Below, piece after piece: positions 827-32,708 of a stretch of 32,708 nucleotides of DNA. The DNA is taken from contig CALXJJ010000017.1 of assembly GCA_944388605.1 (NCBI GenBank), positions 1-32,708 of the forward strand, given 5' to 3'. The translations under genes and the position numbers were made by a program. Below the pieces are notes generated by a model that was not told the DNA's origin, made no database searches, and was given only the letters and a program-made list of their open reading frames with translations. Within the stretch, counting starts at the first letter, position 1. Each line of letters begins with the position of its first letter. Source of the DNA: an uncultured Clostridia bacterium. Its GTDB lineage: Bacteria > Bacillota > Clostridia > TANB77 > CAG-508.

Positions 827-3646
827 TTAATCTATTATATTATCTATAGTATTTGTACTATTTACAATAACGTTTTCTTCTATTTCATTTATCTCGTCTT
901 TTTCTTGCTCTTCTACAAGTTCTTCTAATTTATTTATAAGTCCTTGTAATTTTTCCATATCTTTTCCTATCATTTCCCAATCATTATTGCTACTTGAGTT
1001 TTCTAAGTTTTTATTTGCTTTTATAATTGCTGAAACTAAATCGTCTATATTATCTGTATTCTCTATTTCTATATCTACTGCATATTTTGAGACTAAATTT
1101 TGTAATGCTTCTTTTAAATCATTTCCTATCGCTACTTTAGTACCTGATGCTACTATAACTTTTTTCAATACTGGAGTAGCATCTACTTCATTTGTATATT
1201 GCTGATATATTGGTTCTACATACAATAATGTATTTTCTATTGGGACTATTACCATAGTTTTAGTTAATTTAGCACCACTTACATTTAAACTTTCTAATTC
1301 ATTAGAAATTGTTTCATCTTGTTCTAATTGCGTATCCAATTGCATTGGTCCTAATATATTACTATCATTTGGAAATTTATATAAAGTTAGCTTTCCTTTA
1401 CTATCTCCATCATAATTTCCTACTAAATAAGATATTATGTTTTGCTTTTCATATGGAGTGTATGGCAATACTAATCCTAATTGTTCTTCTTTGTCTCCTG
1501 GTTTTAATTTTGTATAATATGCTTCTAGTTTTGTTCCTGTTTTTGATGTTGTACTTCCTGTAGTATGAGTAGCAATATCCCATATATCATCATTTCTATA
1601 TAATACATCTGGTTGCACATTATGATATCTATTTATCATTTGAGCTTGTATATTATATAAGTATTTAGGATATATCAAATGTTTTTGTATGTCTTCTGGT
1701 ATTTCTTCATCCTTGTTTACAAAAGCTTCTGTATACATATTGTAATATGCCATAGCAATAGGATCTGTTCTATCTGTTATATAGAATTTCATTGAGCCAT
1801 CATATGCATCTATTATAACTTTTACAGAATTTCTAATATAATTAATTTCTGTTTTAGTATTATTTACTACAATTGATGTTTTTTGTGAATATGGATAATT
1901 ATTTGACATTGTATATGCATCTAGTACCCATACTAATCTTCCTTCGTCTGTTATAACCATATAAGGATTCTCATCATATACAAAGTATGGCATAACTGTT
2001 TTAGCTCTTTCTATTACATTTCTATTTGTTAAAATTTTACTCTCGTTAGTTACATTTCCAGATAAAGCAAGCTTTATATCTTTTTCCTTTATTGCTAAAA
2101 TTAGTCTATCTAGGAAATTTAACTTTAATCCTGCTTTACCATCATATATATTTTCTGCATTTGTTGTTTCATTTATTGGATAATCAAATTCTTTTTTATC
2201 TTTACTATTTGTAACTACTGTTCCATTTGTTAATAAACCAAAATATATTCTTGGTTCTTCAATATTTATAGCTTGATTTTTATTTTCAAAACTTTTTTGT
2301 AAAATTTGTAATGTACCACTTGTATTAGTTTTTGTTGCTGATGTTATAATTGTTCCATATCCATGTGTATATTCATATGTTTTATTATTATATGTTCTTG
2401 TATTATCACTGCTTATTATTTCCCTTGGTGAAATATAAACTGTTTGTTCGTTTCCATCAATATTATATTCTCCTATTACAGTGTTTTGATAAGAATAATA
2501 TCCTTTATTTGTTTGTAATGCATTTAAATCTTTAAGAACTATGCTTTCATTTGTAATTGGTATATTTTCGATTGTTTTTGAATTTTGATTTATTTCTTCT
2601 GAAATTATTGTCCCAGAATATTCCAAATTAACTTCTTCTATATTTATTCCATATGCAGATTTTGTAGATTTTATATTTTCTGCTATATATTGTTTTTCTT
2701 TATCCAATTCATTTCCTTCTACAAATATAGTTTGAAATCCAACTATTGTTATAAATAATATAATTAGATATTCTGGTACTAATAATATAGATGTAATTAT
2801 TTTTTTTGTTTTTCCTTGTTTAAATGCTTTTATTGCTCTATATGCAGAATAAATCATTATAACAGCTAAAATCCTATATCCCCATAATTTAATAGTAACA
2901 TCTTTAATTCCTGCACCATATAAAGAATAATTTGTATCATTATTTTTTAGAGTTAAGAATTTTTGTGTACCTACATTTTGTGCTCCTACAAATGTTAATA
3001 TTGCTATTAAAATTACTATTAACATTATACTATTACATGCTTGTTTAATGATATTACTATCTTTTAATGTTTGTCTATTGATTCCATCAAAGTAAACATT
3101 AAAAACAATAATAAAATATATTATTTTATATATCAAAAGTCCAGCTAAAATCCCTATCATATAAGTAAATATAAGCTTTATAAAAGGCTCTATAAAAATA
3201 AAATATCCTATATCTATATTAAAAATAAAATCATTTATTTCAAAACTAGCACTATTAAAACATAAATTAGCTTTTTCTAAAATAATGCTACTTGTTAATA
3301 TACTTACAACTGCCGCTCCTATTAAGGCAATAGATTTGTTTGGAAGTTTTGGCATTTCTCTTTTTTCTTCATCAAAAAAAGGTTTTAATCCTTTTCTTAT
3401 ATTTCTATTTGCTTGATATATAAATAAAAATATAAATGCAAAATTTATTAATATTGTTATTGTCATTTGTTTACCTTGTTTCCAATATACATCTACAAAT
3501 TCTTCTCCTACTTCTTTTATTTCTAAATAATTTCCTCTTGCTACTACATAGAATATAATTGCAACTAAAATTAAGAAAGCAAGAACAATAATTGTTCTTT
3601 TATTTATTTTTTTCTCTTGTTTTATCCTACTTGTATCTTTTTCCAC
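827..3646 (-). CDS. UPF0182 family membrane protein
   Basis: This protein of about 939 residues matches the UPF0182 family (PF03699) in size and layout. The N-terminal third (about residues 20-310) holds roughly seven hydrophobic helices, and a large extracytoplasmic region of about 600 residues follows. That region contains family-type stretches such as NPYMVITDEGRLVWVLDAYT, INYIRNSVKVIIDAYDG and HLIYPKYLYNIQ. The C-terminus is acidic and probably helical (EKLQGLINKLEELVEEQEKDEINEIEE). The biochemical role of the family is unknown. The chosen start is the GTG at 3646, with AAAGGA nine bases upstream; the TTG nine bases earlier overlaps that site. Only about 40 bases separate it from the upstream ftsY stop, so co-transcription from the ftsY promoter is likely. 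Confidence 0.88.
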   Translation of the reverse strand: MEKDTSRIKQEKKINKRTIIVLAFLILVAIIFYVVARGNYLEIKEVGEEFVDVYWKQGKQMTITILINFAFIFLFIYQANRNIRKGLKPFFDEEKREMPKLPNKSIALIGAAVVSILTSSIILEKANLCFNSASFEINDFIFNIDIGYFIFIEPFIKLIFTYMIGILAGLLIYKIIYFIIVFNVYFDGINRQTLKDSNIIKQACNSIMLIVILIAILTFVGAQNVGTQKFLTLKNNDTNYSLYGAGIKDVTIKLWGYRILAVIMIYSAYRAIKAFKQGKTKKIITSILLVPEYLIILFITIVGFQTIFVEGNELDKEKQYIAENIKSTKSAYGINIEEVNLEYSGTIISEEINQNSKTIENIPITNESIVLKDLNALQTNKGYYSYQNTVIGEYNIDGNEQTVYISPREIISSDNTRTYNNKTYEYTHGYGTIITSATKTNTSGTLQILQKSFENKNQAINIEEPRIYFGLLTNGTVVTNSKDKKEFDYPINETTNAENIYDGKAGLKLNFLDRLILAIKEKDIKLALSGNVTNESKILTNRNVIERAKTVMPYFVYDENPYMVITDEGRLVWVLDAYTMSNNYPYSQKTSIVVNNTKTEINYIRNSVKVIIDAYDGSMKFYITDRTDPIAMAYYNMYTEAFVNKDEEIPEDIQKHLIYPKYLYNIQAQMINRYHNVQPDVLYRNDDIWDIATHTTGSTTSKTGTKLEAYYTKLKPGDKEEQLGLVLPYTPYEKQNIISYLVGNYDGDSKGKLTLYKFPNDSNILGPMQLDTQLEQDETISNELESLNVSGAKLTKTMVIVPIENTLLYVEPIYQQYTNEVDATPVLKKVIVASGTKVAIGNDLKEALQNLVSKYAVDIEIENTDNIDDLVSAIIKANKNLENSSSNNDWEMIGKDMEKLQGLINKLEELVEEQEKDEINEIEENVIVNSTNTIDNIID

Positions 3647-27672: not shown

Positions 27673-27701
27673 AAAAAAACTCTATTTTAAAAAATAGAGT
27701 T
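27673..27701 (-). terminator. Integrase terminator overlapping its stop codon
   Basis: An 11-bp stem (27678-27688 with 27691-27701) and, on the minus strand, a run of seven T. The integrase stop codon lies inside the stem and loop. Confidence 0.85.
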
Positions 27702-28889
27702 AATTTTTTCAATTTCTTTTTCTTTAAATTCATTAAATACACTTGTATATGTGTTTAATGTAACTTGTATATCTTTATGTCCCAATATTCTTTGTAAAAC
27801 AACAGGACTTACTCCATTTTCTATACATCTAGTTGCAAATGTATGTCTTAACATATGTGTATTAACTTTGCTTTTAGTTATATCGCATTGATATATTTTT
27901 TTAGTTTTTCTACCACCCATTATTCCTTTCTTCTTTTTATAAACTCTAATGTCTGCATTCTTACAAAGTTTTTGAAATCTTGCATTAAAATTTGTTGCGT
28001 GTATAAAGTTTCCATCTTTTAAAAATAAAAAGCCTTTCTTTTTATCTATTTTGTATTCTACTAGTTTATCATATAATGTATTTAACATTGGCACATCTCT
28101 CATACCTGCATAAGTTTTTGTTGTATTCTCTAATAAAATTCTTCCTTTATCAACGTGGCTTAATGTTTTCCTTACATATATTTTTTTATTCTCAAAATCT
28201 ATATCTTCCCTCTTTAATGCCAATATTTCACTTATTCTCATTCCAGTATAAATAGCCATATAAAAGACTATTGTATAATCATCATACCCCTTATCTAATT
28301 CTTTAATAAATCTTTCTTCTTCATCTATTGTTAAAGCATCAATTTTTTTAGTAGGTTTGCTAGATTTTGGTTTCATCAAATACCCTTTCAATTCAAAAGG
28401 ATTTTTATCCACTATATCTCTTATTCTTGCTTCATTAAATGCCCCTTGTAACTGTTGCCACACTTTTGTTATTACAGATTGCGAGTATTCAGTAAGCAAT
28501 TGACTTTGAATATTTATTATACTTCTAGTAACATTTTGAATTGGAATATTAGCAAATGGTAATATTTTTCTCATTATATCTATTGTTTCCCCAATTCTTA
28601 CATAAGAGGCTCTTTTTATAGAATTAGTATTATATTTTAATTCTCTGATTTCTTCTGCAATATCTACTACTGATAGCACATTTCCTACATCTTTTCCTCT
28701 CTCCATTTCTCTTAAAAGTACATCCATTTTTTCCTTTACTTCTTTTCGTGTATTTCCATATAAGCTTTTTCTTACTTGTTTTCCATTGCCATCTCGTCCT
28801 AAAGTAACTTGTCCTACCCATTTTTTTGTTGCTTCTGAATAATAAATAGTTCCCTCTCCATTGCCTCTCTTTTTTAATGTTCTTCCCAT
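27687..28889 (-). CDS. int: Tyrosine recombinase (integrase), Tn916 family
   Basis: Site-specific recombinase that inserts and excises the element. The 400-residue protein starts with an AP2-like arm-binding domain (RGNGEGTIYYSEATKKWVGQ), followed by a core-binding SAM-like domain (about 70-165) and the catalytic domain. The catalytic residues are all present: Arg218 (TGMRISEIL), His345 and Arg348 (THMLRHTFATR), His371 (LGHKDI) and nucleophile Tyr381 (LNTYTSV). An active enzyme is therefore expected. The ATG at 28889 is eight bases after GGAG; the GTG three codons earlier overlaps that site. It lies 29 bases after the excisionase-like gene. Confidence 0.95.
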   Translation of the reverse strand: MGRTLKKRGNGEGTIYYSEATKKWVGQVTLGRDGNGKQVRKSLYGNTRKEVKEKMDVLLREMERGKDVGNVLSVVDIAEEIRELKYNTNSIKRASYVRIGETIDIMRKILPFANIPIQNVTRSIINIQSQLLTEYSQSVITKVWQQLQGAFNEARIRDIVDKNPFELKGYLMKPKSSKPTKKIDALTIDEEERFIKELDKGYDDYTIVFYMAIYTGMRISEILALKREDIDFENKKIYVRKTLSHVDKGRILLENTTKTYAGMRDVPMLNTLYDKLVEYKIDKKKGFLFLKDGNFIHATNFNARFQKLCKNADIRVYKKKKGIMGGRKTKKIYQCDITKSKVNTHMLRHTFATRCIENGVSPVVLQRILGHKDIQVTLNTYTSVFNEFKEKEIEKINSIF

Positions 28890-28918
28890 ATTTTTCACTC
28901 CACTTCTAAAAATGAAAA

Positions 28919-29285: not shown

Positions 29286-29663
29286 TTATAATTTCTTTCT
29301 AACATACTCTACCGCATTATCTGGAGAATAAAGTTTAGCAACTACTAAAAATTGACTTACAATATCTTTTATTTCAATCACTCTATTTGCTCTCATAAGA
29401 TTATTAAAAACTATATAAGCATAAGAAAGCATTTGTTCTACTGTCAAATTCCAATATAAGTCAATTTCTTCTATAAATACACTATCAACTAAATCTACTA
29501 ATTTATTTTTATCTATATTTACAATTGCTGTTGTAACATTGTTCATTATTTCTTCAAACTCATTTTTATTTTCTGTGTCTTTAAATCCTATAATAAAATA
29601 GCTTACCATCTGTTTTGCCGAATATCTTTCGTTTAATAATTTTTCTAATATATTTTCTTCCAT
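29286..29663 (-). CDS. Element protein of unknown function (125 aa)
   Basis: I do not recognise this gene. The product is mostly helical, acidic and soluble, with no signal peptide or membrane segment: MEENILEKLLNERYSAKQ, a middle with KNEFEEIMNNVTTAIVNI, and a C-terminal VVAKLYSPDNAVEYVRKKL. It starts behind AAAGGAATAAGAA, a good ribosome-binding site. It lies between two terminators, after the MazF-like gene and before the excisionase-like gene, and so is probably expressed separately. An accessory or regulatory role in the element is only a guess from its place. Confidence 0.7.
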   Translation of the reverse strand: MEENILEKLLNERYSAKQMVSYFIIGFKDTENKNEFEEIMNNVTTAIVNIDKNKLVDLVDSVFIEEIDLYWNLTVEQMLSYAYIVFNNLMRANRVIEIKDIVSQFLVVAKLYSPDNAVEYVRKKL

Positions 29664-29720: not shown

Positions 29721-30089
29721 CTACTTTTTTATTCCTATAGCAATTTTCATTGCTATATCTAATTTCTCCATTATTTTTGGAGTCAATTTTCCTATTCTAT
29801 CGCCTAATCTTTTTTTATCTATTGTCCTTATCTGTTCTGCTAATATTGTTGAATCACATTTTAATTCTCCAAATTGCTTTACATCTATGTGTGTAGGTTG
29901 TGGATTAACAATATCTAATCTTTTAGTAAACGGCAATACAATTGTAGTTGGAGAATATACATTGCCTATATCATTTTGTACAACAACGACAGGTCTATTT
30001 CCTTTTTGTTCACTTCCTACTGTTTCAAGGAGTTTAGCATAATATATTTCTCCTCTATAAATTTGTCTTGTTCCTTTTTTTGTTTTCAC
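29721..30089 (-). CDS. PemK/MazF-family endoribonuclease toxin
   Basis: A 122-residue SH3-like-barrel protein of the PemK/MazF family. Typical parts are QIYRGEIYYAKL near the start, GSEQKGNRPVVVVQND (about 24-40), TTIVLPFTKR and STILAEQIRTIDKKRLGDRIGKL. The family cuts mRNA at short sequences and is normally paired with a small DNA-binding antitoxin. No such antitoxin gene is adjacent. The preferred start is the GTG at 30089, eight bases after GGAGG; an ATG five codons earlier overlaps that site. The 5' end overlaps the small membrane-protein gene by 35 bases. Without an antitoxin it may be a regulator or be neutralised elsewhere. Confidence 0.88.
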   Translation of the reverse strand: MKTKKGTRQIYRGEIYYAKLLETVGSEQKGNRPVVVVQNDIGNVYSPTTIVLPFTKRLDIVNPQPTHIDVKQFGELKCDSTILAEQIRTIDKKRLGDRIGKLTPKIMEKLDIAMKIAIGIKK

Positions 30090-30249
30090 ATTTTTTGCCT
30101 CCATTTTCGTAATTTCTTATATATTCCAATTGTTCATTATCTTCTATTTCTCTTTCTTTATCAGTTTTATTCATATTAGCACCTACAAGTAAAATATATG
30201 TAAAAAATGTTATTGCTAATAAACTCACAGCTATTATTGCTATTATCAT
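30055..30249 (-). CDS. Small single-pass membrane protein of the element
   Basis: A 64-residue protein. Residues 1-23 form one hydrophobic helix (MIIAIIAVSLLAITFFTYILL), followed by VGANMNKTDKEREIEDNEQLEYIRNYENGGKK and a basic tail. Proteins with this helix plus 'GANMNKT-x-x-E-x-x-x-EDxEQ-x-x-YI' pattern occur in Firmicute phages and conjugative elements, with unknown function. GAGGTGG precedes the ATG. Its end overlaps the start of the MazF-like gene, so the two are translationally coupled. Confidence 0.75.
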   Translation of the reverse strand: MIIAIIAVSLLAITFFTYILLVGANMNKTDKEREIEDNEQLEYIRNYENGGKKCENKKRNKTNL

Positions 30250-30270: not shown

Positions 30271-30532
30271 AGGAACTACCCTATTTCAGATAGTTCCTAT
30301 CATTACTTTGTTTCTATCTTTATTACCATTAAATTGTGATTTGCTAAATCACCCATAGGAATTCCACCTGCCTGTACACAGACTTGCACTCAATGCTTGG
30401 GACGGTTTTATCACGCTCGAACTATGACTATGCAAAAGTATCAATCCATTAAAATCATCGCCTTATTAGTTGCAATCTAATATTTTTTCATTCTATGAGT
30501 TCTGTTCTCTCATAAACGAGCTCCTTTAATGG
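30271..30532 (-). ncRNA. Candidate structured non-coding RNA of the element
   Basis: The 387-base gap 30250-30636 has no long ORF and is visibly richer in G and C than its surroundings. On the minus strand it holds CCATTAAA (30525-30532), hairpins ATGAG/CTCAT (30495-30513) and TATTAG/CTAATA (30464-30482), a first TTTAATGG (30446-30453), GTGATTT/AAATCAC (30336-30352), a second TTTAATGG (30326-30333) and a final stem AGGAACTA/TAGTTCCT (30271-30298). The single CCATTAAA can pair with either TTTAATGG, but not both. I match it to no named RNA family. Confidence 0.45.
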
Positions 30533-30586
30533 TGTTATAATGGTTTTATTCAATTTTCAATGTGCTTTTTGGAAAGGTATAAAAAT

Positions 30587-30620
30587 ACCCCCTCAATCCA
30601 TAAAGGAAAAAATCGGGGGT
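30587..30620 (-). terminator. Terminator of the sigma-like gene
   Basis: ACCCCC / GGGGGT outer stem (30587-30592 with 30615-30620), followed on the minus strand by ATTTTTATA. Confidence 0.75.
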
Positions 30621-30636
30621 TTGTACGAAAAAAATT

Positions 30637-31149
30637 TTAAAATTTTAAAATTTTTCTTAATTTTTCTATAATTTTATCTTTTCTACTTTGAATAGTAGTA
30701 AATGGAATACCTCTTATTCTTGCATATTCTCGAACGGTTTTTTCATTAAAAAATAATTCTTTTATAAGTTGATATTCATCATTATCTAGTTCCAATAATG
30801 CCTTTCTTAATTGCTCTATTTCCATTTTTCTTTCTATTTCAATTTCTATATTTTTACTAATATCTGCAATAACTTGTTTATCATCCATATCTTCATCAGT
30901 ATTTAATTCGTCAATAGAAACAACTTGTAATTTCTGTAGTATCTTTTTACAATATCTGTTTCTTTCTATTTCAGTATAGTAATCTTCATATTCTTTTTTT
31001 GATAATTCTAACAACATTCCGTGTATGTATATAAACTTTTTTTCTCTATATGAATTTATTATTTTTCTTCTTTTTTCTAATTCCTCATAAGTAATTTCTT
31101 CATAAATTCCTTTTCCTATTTTTATAAAACATTTTGCATTATCTTTCAT
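30637..31149 (-). CDS. Sigma-70 region 4-like regulator of the element
   Basis: A 170-residue protein. The first half contains KIGKGIYEEITYEELEKRRKIINSYREKKFIYIHGMLLELSKKEYEDYY. The C-terminal part (about 110-170; EQLRKALLELDNDEYQLIKELFFNEKTVREYARIRGIPFTTIQSRKDKIIEKLRKIL) is a sigma region 4-type helix-turn-helix. This architecture is the one seen in the Tn916 Orf7-like sigma-factor-type regulators of conjugative elements. There is no region 2, so it is not a full sigma factor. GGAGG lies nine bases before the ATG. It follows the candidate RNA at 31241-31430 and has its own terminator. Confidence 0.8.
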   Translation of the reverse strand: MKDNAKCFIKIGKGIYEEITYEELEKRRKIINSYREKKFIYIHGMLLELSKKEYEDYYTEIERNRYCKKILQKLQVVSIDELNTDEDMDDKQVIADISKNIEIEIERKMEIEQLRKALLELDNDEYQLIKELFFNEKTVREYARIRGIPFTTIQSRKDKIIEKLRKILKF

Positions 31150-32541: not shown

Positions 32542-32708
32542 TTATTCTTCATAATTCTCTACTACTTCTTCTTGTGTCTGTATTACTATTGTTTTTGAAT
32601 CACTATCTGCTTCAAGTTTATTAAATGCTATAAATCCTATTATCATAAGAAATACATATAATATTGCTACTATAAGAATGAATATTCCTATTCCCTTTAG
32701 AATCTTAA
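32542..32708 (-). CDS. Small membrane protein, C-terminus only (runs off the right edge)
   Basis: The last 54 codons of a minus-strand gene whose 5' end is outside the window. The visible part is KILKGIGIFILIVAILYVFLMII, a membrane helix, followed by a short acidic tail that ends VIQTQEEVVENYEE and a TAA stop. The product is probably a small single-pass membrane protein of the mobile element. Nothing more specific can be said. About 95 bases without a gene separate it from the XRE promoter region. Confidence 0.6.
   Translation of the reverse strand, partial: KILKGIGIFILIVAILYVFLMIIGFIAFNKLEADSDSKTIVIQTQEEVVENYEE

Follow-up and report, generated by a model that had tools for sequence, protein, structure and literature searches.

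A candidate canT-type antiterminator RNA of the pemK class in an integrative element of an uncultured Clostridia bacterium

The canT RNA of Tn916, encoded between orf8 and xis, is a cis-acting, orientation-specific and processive antiterminator (Wirachman and Grossman, PMC11658703). Assayed in one element and one host, it was processive over terminators of Tn916, B. subtilis, E. coli rrnB and lambda, and transcription of the conjugation genes in the excised Tn916 circle was found to depend on it (PMC11658703). HK022 put and B. subtilis EAR are likewise cis-acting RNAs that give rise to terminator-resistant RNA polymerase (cited in PMC11658703); they belong to different elements and are of different sizes than the RNA described here, to which they are likened by function. 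In the lambda nut site (boxA and boxB, together with the N protein), a mobile element also uses boxA and a structured RNA for antitermination; canT, by contrast, requires no other Tn916 gene (PMC11658703). The authors of canT described its single-sequence structure predictions as complicated (PMC11658703).

Here we describe an RNA that, judged from its sequence and its homologues, is very probably a canT-type, cis-acting processive antiterminator that belongs to an integrative element. It lies in a stretch of 32,708 nucleotides from an uncultured Clostridia bacterium (contig CALXJJ010000017.1, positions 1 to 32,708; hereafter the window), which runs to the end of the contig at 32708 and covers the integrase end of the element. 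A sequence-only reading had placed a structured RNA at 30271-30532, in a mobile element, after a terminator and before a MazF-like gene. Covariation across homologues bears out the structured RNA, and its placement held, with a terminator-like hairpin on its 5' side; the boundaries were slightly off, as the boxA-like motif and the folded RNA together run from 30566 down to 30324. The raised GC content was also confirmed: it amounts to 34.7%, while the remainder of the element within the window has 25.4%, and only 2.5% of 239-nt windows there are as GC-rich. Scans of the window for tRNAs, and for Rfam families at gathering thresholds, gave no match, nor did a blastn search of its element against plasmids and phages; the element from a relative gave weak blastn matches in unannotated phage records. 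The fold of the single sequence was not outstanding (z -1.26), and homologues were therefore needed to decide whether the RNA is structured.

The RNA consists of about 240 nt of nested helices on the minus strand (30324-30562), matched by our covariance model R1 over its full extent (model positions 1-251, 225.3 bits). Following the boxA-like motif AGCACATTGAAAATTGAATA (30547-30566), the 5' arm of the outer helix P0, ACCATTATA (30536-30544), pairs with the 3' arm TTTAATGGTA (30324-30333), as placed in the helix alignment. The P0 arms enclose the inner helix P1, formed by CCATTAAA (30525-30532) and TTTAATGG (30446-30453) and backed by both the helix alignment and the arm-swap energies given below. 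Within P1, the hairpin TATTAG..CTAATA (30464-30482) is 100% paired, with compensatory changes. A core that matches the Rfam pemK RNA follows (30353-30445), and between this core and the 3' arm of P0 stands the hairpin GTGATTTAGCAAATCAC (30336-30352), a helix in the 24-copy alignment. Local hairpins, as noted in the sequence-only reading, are present at 30514-30494, 30482-30464, 30382-30371 and 30352-30336, plus one at 30297-30272. This last hairpin, which has a weak U-run and an uncertain role, lies between the RNA and the first ORF; a pairing AGATAG/CTATCT that would open it was dropped, being present in a few close copies only.

The structure is real and goes beyond what chance would produce. 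Homologues were collected by blastn, which detected the element, whole or in part, in 50 of 195 genomes from the bacterium's family, and 24 copies were aligned with nine hand-placed helices (alignment A1). In this alignment 93.0% of the cells were paired, compared to 84.4% when the 3' letters were shuffled and 35-44% when the partners were slid, and two-sided changes occurred at 26 of the 48 pairs versus 11.5 in shuffles. P1 shows almost no sequence constraint, yet its two arms are complementary in each copy, with energies of -10.0 kcal/mol for a copy's own arms, -5.6 for arms from different copies and -4.8 for shuffled arms. R1, a model of 251 positions, detected the RNA in 63 of 68 loci, one per locus and mostly at full length, with many of these loci outside the training set. 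The covariation score on the R1-based alignment was 0.522 versus 0.178 for shuffled data, though the fitting of this alignment to the structure works in the score's favour.

Two copies of TTTAATGG in the window had suggested a switching RNA with two mutually exclusive partners for CCATTAAA. The repeats themselves are as described, with CCATTAAA at 30532-30525 on the minus strand and TTTAATGG at 30453-30446 and 30333-30326, about 72 and 192 nt downstream. The switch is not borne out, as the second TTTAATGG, part of the 3' arm of P0, has its own partner in ACCATTATA, and P1 and P0 are thus compatible. A length of 7 bp or more is reached by the alternative pairing in only 5 of the 24 homologues, by P0 in all 24 and by P1 in 16, and the two nested helices average 8.0 and 10.3 bp. 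The identical 8-mers are a coincidence peculiar to the window copy.

A permissive Rfam scan gave a match to pemK RNA (RF02913) at 30353-30445, with 24.9 bits (E 0.023), which does not reach the gathering cut-off of 34.8. All 61 RF02913 positions align to the window copy, with an insert of about 40 nt. Two of its blastn homologues (G065:C12 and G009:C38) pass the cut-off, with 41.8 and 35.1 bits, and the single model R1 spans both groups, window-type copies and pemK RNAs above the cut-off. A second pemK copy, itself above the cut-off, is found on contig 16 of the window's own genome. Within the order, RF02913 matches 78 of 287 genomes, 46 of them above the cut-off, and phylum-wide 26 of 398 genomes match at E ≤1e-4. 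The Rfam model, which Rfam classes as ‘Cis-reg’ and which is named after PemK, a minority neighbour, covers only the 3' core (61 positions) of an RNA of about 240 nt. The window RNA is a divergent member of the pemK/canT RNA family. The pemK motif reportedly comes from Weinberg et al. 2017, and its association with recombinases may already stand in that source publication.

For canT itself we examined the Tn916-type copy on pCF10 (L218). Its canT region matches RF02913 above the gathering cut-off (55.0 bits) and R1 at full length (100.3 bits, E 9.5e-24). The copy on pCTN1046 (L220) has the same R1 score, and the vanB element in E. faecium (L219) matches both RF02913 (57.8 bits) and R1 (56.5 bits). 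In the published mutants, the canT(S3) change of ATA to TGC inactivates canT (PMC11658703); by the paper's coordinates it hits the three bases with which the pemK match begins (L218:3038-3040). The pemK core is lost in the 162-bp deletion of canT (2984-3145). Like the window RNA, canT has nested P0 and P1, the core and a boxA-like motif, belongs to the same R1 family and lies on the same strand between a sigma-like gene and xis/int. The gene order of Tn916 (HTH, sigma-like, RNA, small ORFs/xis, int) is matched in the window, where the RNA is preceded, again as in Tn916, by a sigma-70 region 4-like gene (30637-31149, minus strand; PF04545, weak, 0.00039). The window copy differs in being shorter inside P1 and in that a membrane ORF and PemK separate its RNA from the small ORFs, whereas Tn916 canT has no adjoining PemK. 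The canT paper mentions neither pemK nor boxA nor Rfam (PMC11658703), and we found no link of pemK with canT, or of either with boxA, in the literature searched. Equating pemK with canT, boxA and consensus structure included, appears to be novel in that literature. A separate Rfam match in L218 (1589-1818, 229.8 bits), in the Tn916 regulatory region, is to SQ2397 (RF03532), a cis-regulator of an HTH factor, which also has a weak match in the vanB element L219.

By analogy with canT, we infer that the window copy is active as an antiterminator. The RNA would be transcribed together with the regulator and sigma-like genes, or from a promoter near the RNA, and would fold as it emerges into boxA, outer helix P0, inner helix P1 and the conserved pemK core. 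The folded RNA would remain with RNA polymerase and make it resistant to terminators further on, within and after the module of PemK, small ORFs and integrase. After excision into a circle, the terminators guarding genes at the element's other end would also be passed. Host Nus factors may be recruited through boxA. We know of no N-like protein for the canT/pemK class.

The motif at 30547-30566, by its sequence, is boxA-like and of the kind found in rRNA leaders. It is nearly identical to the 16S leader motif of the host's family: nine genomes there have AAAGTACATTGAAAAGTAAACAA, or a form close to it, where the window has AAAAAGCACATTGAAAATTGAATAA, and in more distant Bacillota the 16S leader motifs are GGTCATTGAAAACTGAACA and TTGTTCTTTGAAAACTGCACA. 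In rRNA leaders boxA is the NusB/S10 site; there too it precedes a structured leader, but in the window the canT/pemK fold follows instead of the 16S leader. The pattern C[ACT]TTGA[AC]A[AT] was present within 260 nt 5' of the fold in 56 of 60 loci, compared to 3.7% of control windows. A strict boxA pattern, which the window motif matches, is rare elsewhere in genomes: 74 of 79 genomes contain it, with roughly two sites each, and none of the 79 contains the reversed pattern. Thirty strict-pattern loci that were fetched were mostly rRNA leaders or RNase Y leaders, with one pemK RNA, and in the window's own genome (an assembly without 16S) the two matches are the window element and the RNase Y gene. 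These findings favour a variant in which the RNA mainly loads the host NusB/S10 complex via boxA and the fold helps the complex persist. Against it, the active 452-bp canT fragment starts at L218:2881, inside boxA, and so lacks its first part; the full boxA is therefore dispensable in that reporter. In addition, activity of the 452-bp fragment is abolished by S3, a mutation confined to the core (PMC11658703). We consider it slightly less than an even bet that antitermination depends on boxA in this way.

The TTGAAA within the motif was also considered as a -35 box and rejected for the class: the 5' arm of P0, which lies in the would-be promoter, covaries, a distinct TTGACW-17-TATAAT-like promoter is found another 60-110 nt upstream in several copies, and many distant copies lack a spaced -10. 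In many genomes of the family the RNase Y gene, rny, is preceded by a boxA-like motif about 20-40 bases upstream of its start (L178-L180, L182, L183, L192, L195, L198-L203 and L205, with L202 from the window's own genome); the gene in L178 is RNase Y by Pfam.

Downstream of the RNA in the window, all on the minus strand, lie a 64-aa ORF with a membrane segment (30055-30249), which is the first ORF after the RNA, a PemK/MazF-like gene (29721-30104; PF02452, 5e-29), which it overlaps, and the tyrosine recombinase (integrase) of the element (27687-28898; PF00589, 4.3e-26). Many copies of the element have this pair of membrane ORF and PemK; in L019, both are matched by a single longer ORF. A 125-aa ORF at 29286-29663 has no Pfam match, and similar-looking small ORFs lie between RNA and recombinase in L020 and L057. 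The MazF-like neighbour, which the sequence-only reading had mentioned, did not prove to be a constant partner, as PemK/MazF was found within 3 kb downstream in only 25 of 60 loci with wide flanks. A tyrosine or serine recombinase, on the other hand, was found 3' of the RNA on the same strand in 57 of these loci, at a median of 688 bases from the RNA match, and upstream in two. Recombinases in the 60 loci were found by our own iterated profiles, with Pfam confirmation for the window integrase and the matches in its own genome. A separate pattern scan of named genomes showed a recombinase downstream in 8 of 10 loci, and among 12 recombinase matches in the window's own genome (1.3 Mb), both RNA copies lie 5' of one. 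The RNA is thus tied to the excision/integration module rather than to PemK.

These neighbourhoods bear on the remaining explanations. The RNA precedes genes on its own strand, many copies have a hairpin between the RNA and the first ORF, and the name and Rfam class suggest cis-regulation, as would be expected of an ordinary attenuator-type or riboswitch-like leader acting on the next gene alone. We regard such a leader as unlikely, since the gene that follows varies, being PemK in some loci and otherwise an excisionase, a recombinase or small ORFs, since the alternative pairing is not conserved and since canT is processive over several terminators (PMC11658703). Still less probable is an RNA antitoxin (type III-like) or other regulator specific to the PemK/MazF-like toxin, which would fit the PemK gene directly downstream in the window and the name of the family; PemK is absent within 3 kb in 35 of the 60 loci and from the side of Tn916 canT, and the RNA has no tandem repeats. 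A DNA-level site, such as a transfer origin or recombinase binding site whose inverted repeats mimic helices, would suit a location near the integrase of a mobile element but is the least probable of all, given nine nested covarying helices with conserved single-stranded parts, copies 5' of the recombinase on its strand in 57 of 60 loci, and the function of canT in one orientation only (PMC11658703).

Some observations speak against the proposed antiterminator role. A terminator-like C5..G5 hairpin with a U-run (30581-30619, minus strand) lies just 5' of boxA. Its role is uncertain: from its position the RNA could not act on it, and it is hard to square with read-in transcription. Many copies, including that in the window, show no evident promoter between this hairpin and boxA. 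The hairpin could be a boxB-like hairpin, or could overlap an unrecognised promoter. Downstream of the sigma-like gene, a strong hairpin with a U-run is conserved 15-25 nt before boxA (L111, L114, L116, L117, L120-L122, L128, L129, L131, L136, L143 and L145). Between RNA and recombinase, terminator-like hairpins showed no coding-strand enrichment (41 vs 53).

On its own, the window copy only adds a member to an RNA family, and its value lies in the link between pemK and canT. A toxin-named RNA class, for which no mechanism is stated in the literature searched, is the same RNA as Tn916 canT, and a covariation-backed consensus structure is now available for canT. Since the window RNA shares a family with canT, the pemK class, listed in databases as a toxin-gene regulator, most likely serves transcription control of mobile DNA across Bacillota. 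The copies in many Bacillota mobile elements, including one carrying vanB, thereby gain a probable function. Phage-like elements may use the RNA too, since in L187 a pemK-type core with boxA precedes an ORF that resembles, as judged by eye, a BRO-like phage antirepressor. For the broader joint claim the balance is even: that the whole class, comprising Tn916 canT, vanB elements and elements with serine or tyrosine recombinases, would be Bacillota-wide processive antiterminators of integrative elements that load the host rRNA antitermination machinery via boxA. The finding thus raises the idea that mobile elements may exploit the host rRNA boxA system.
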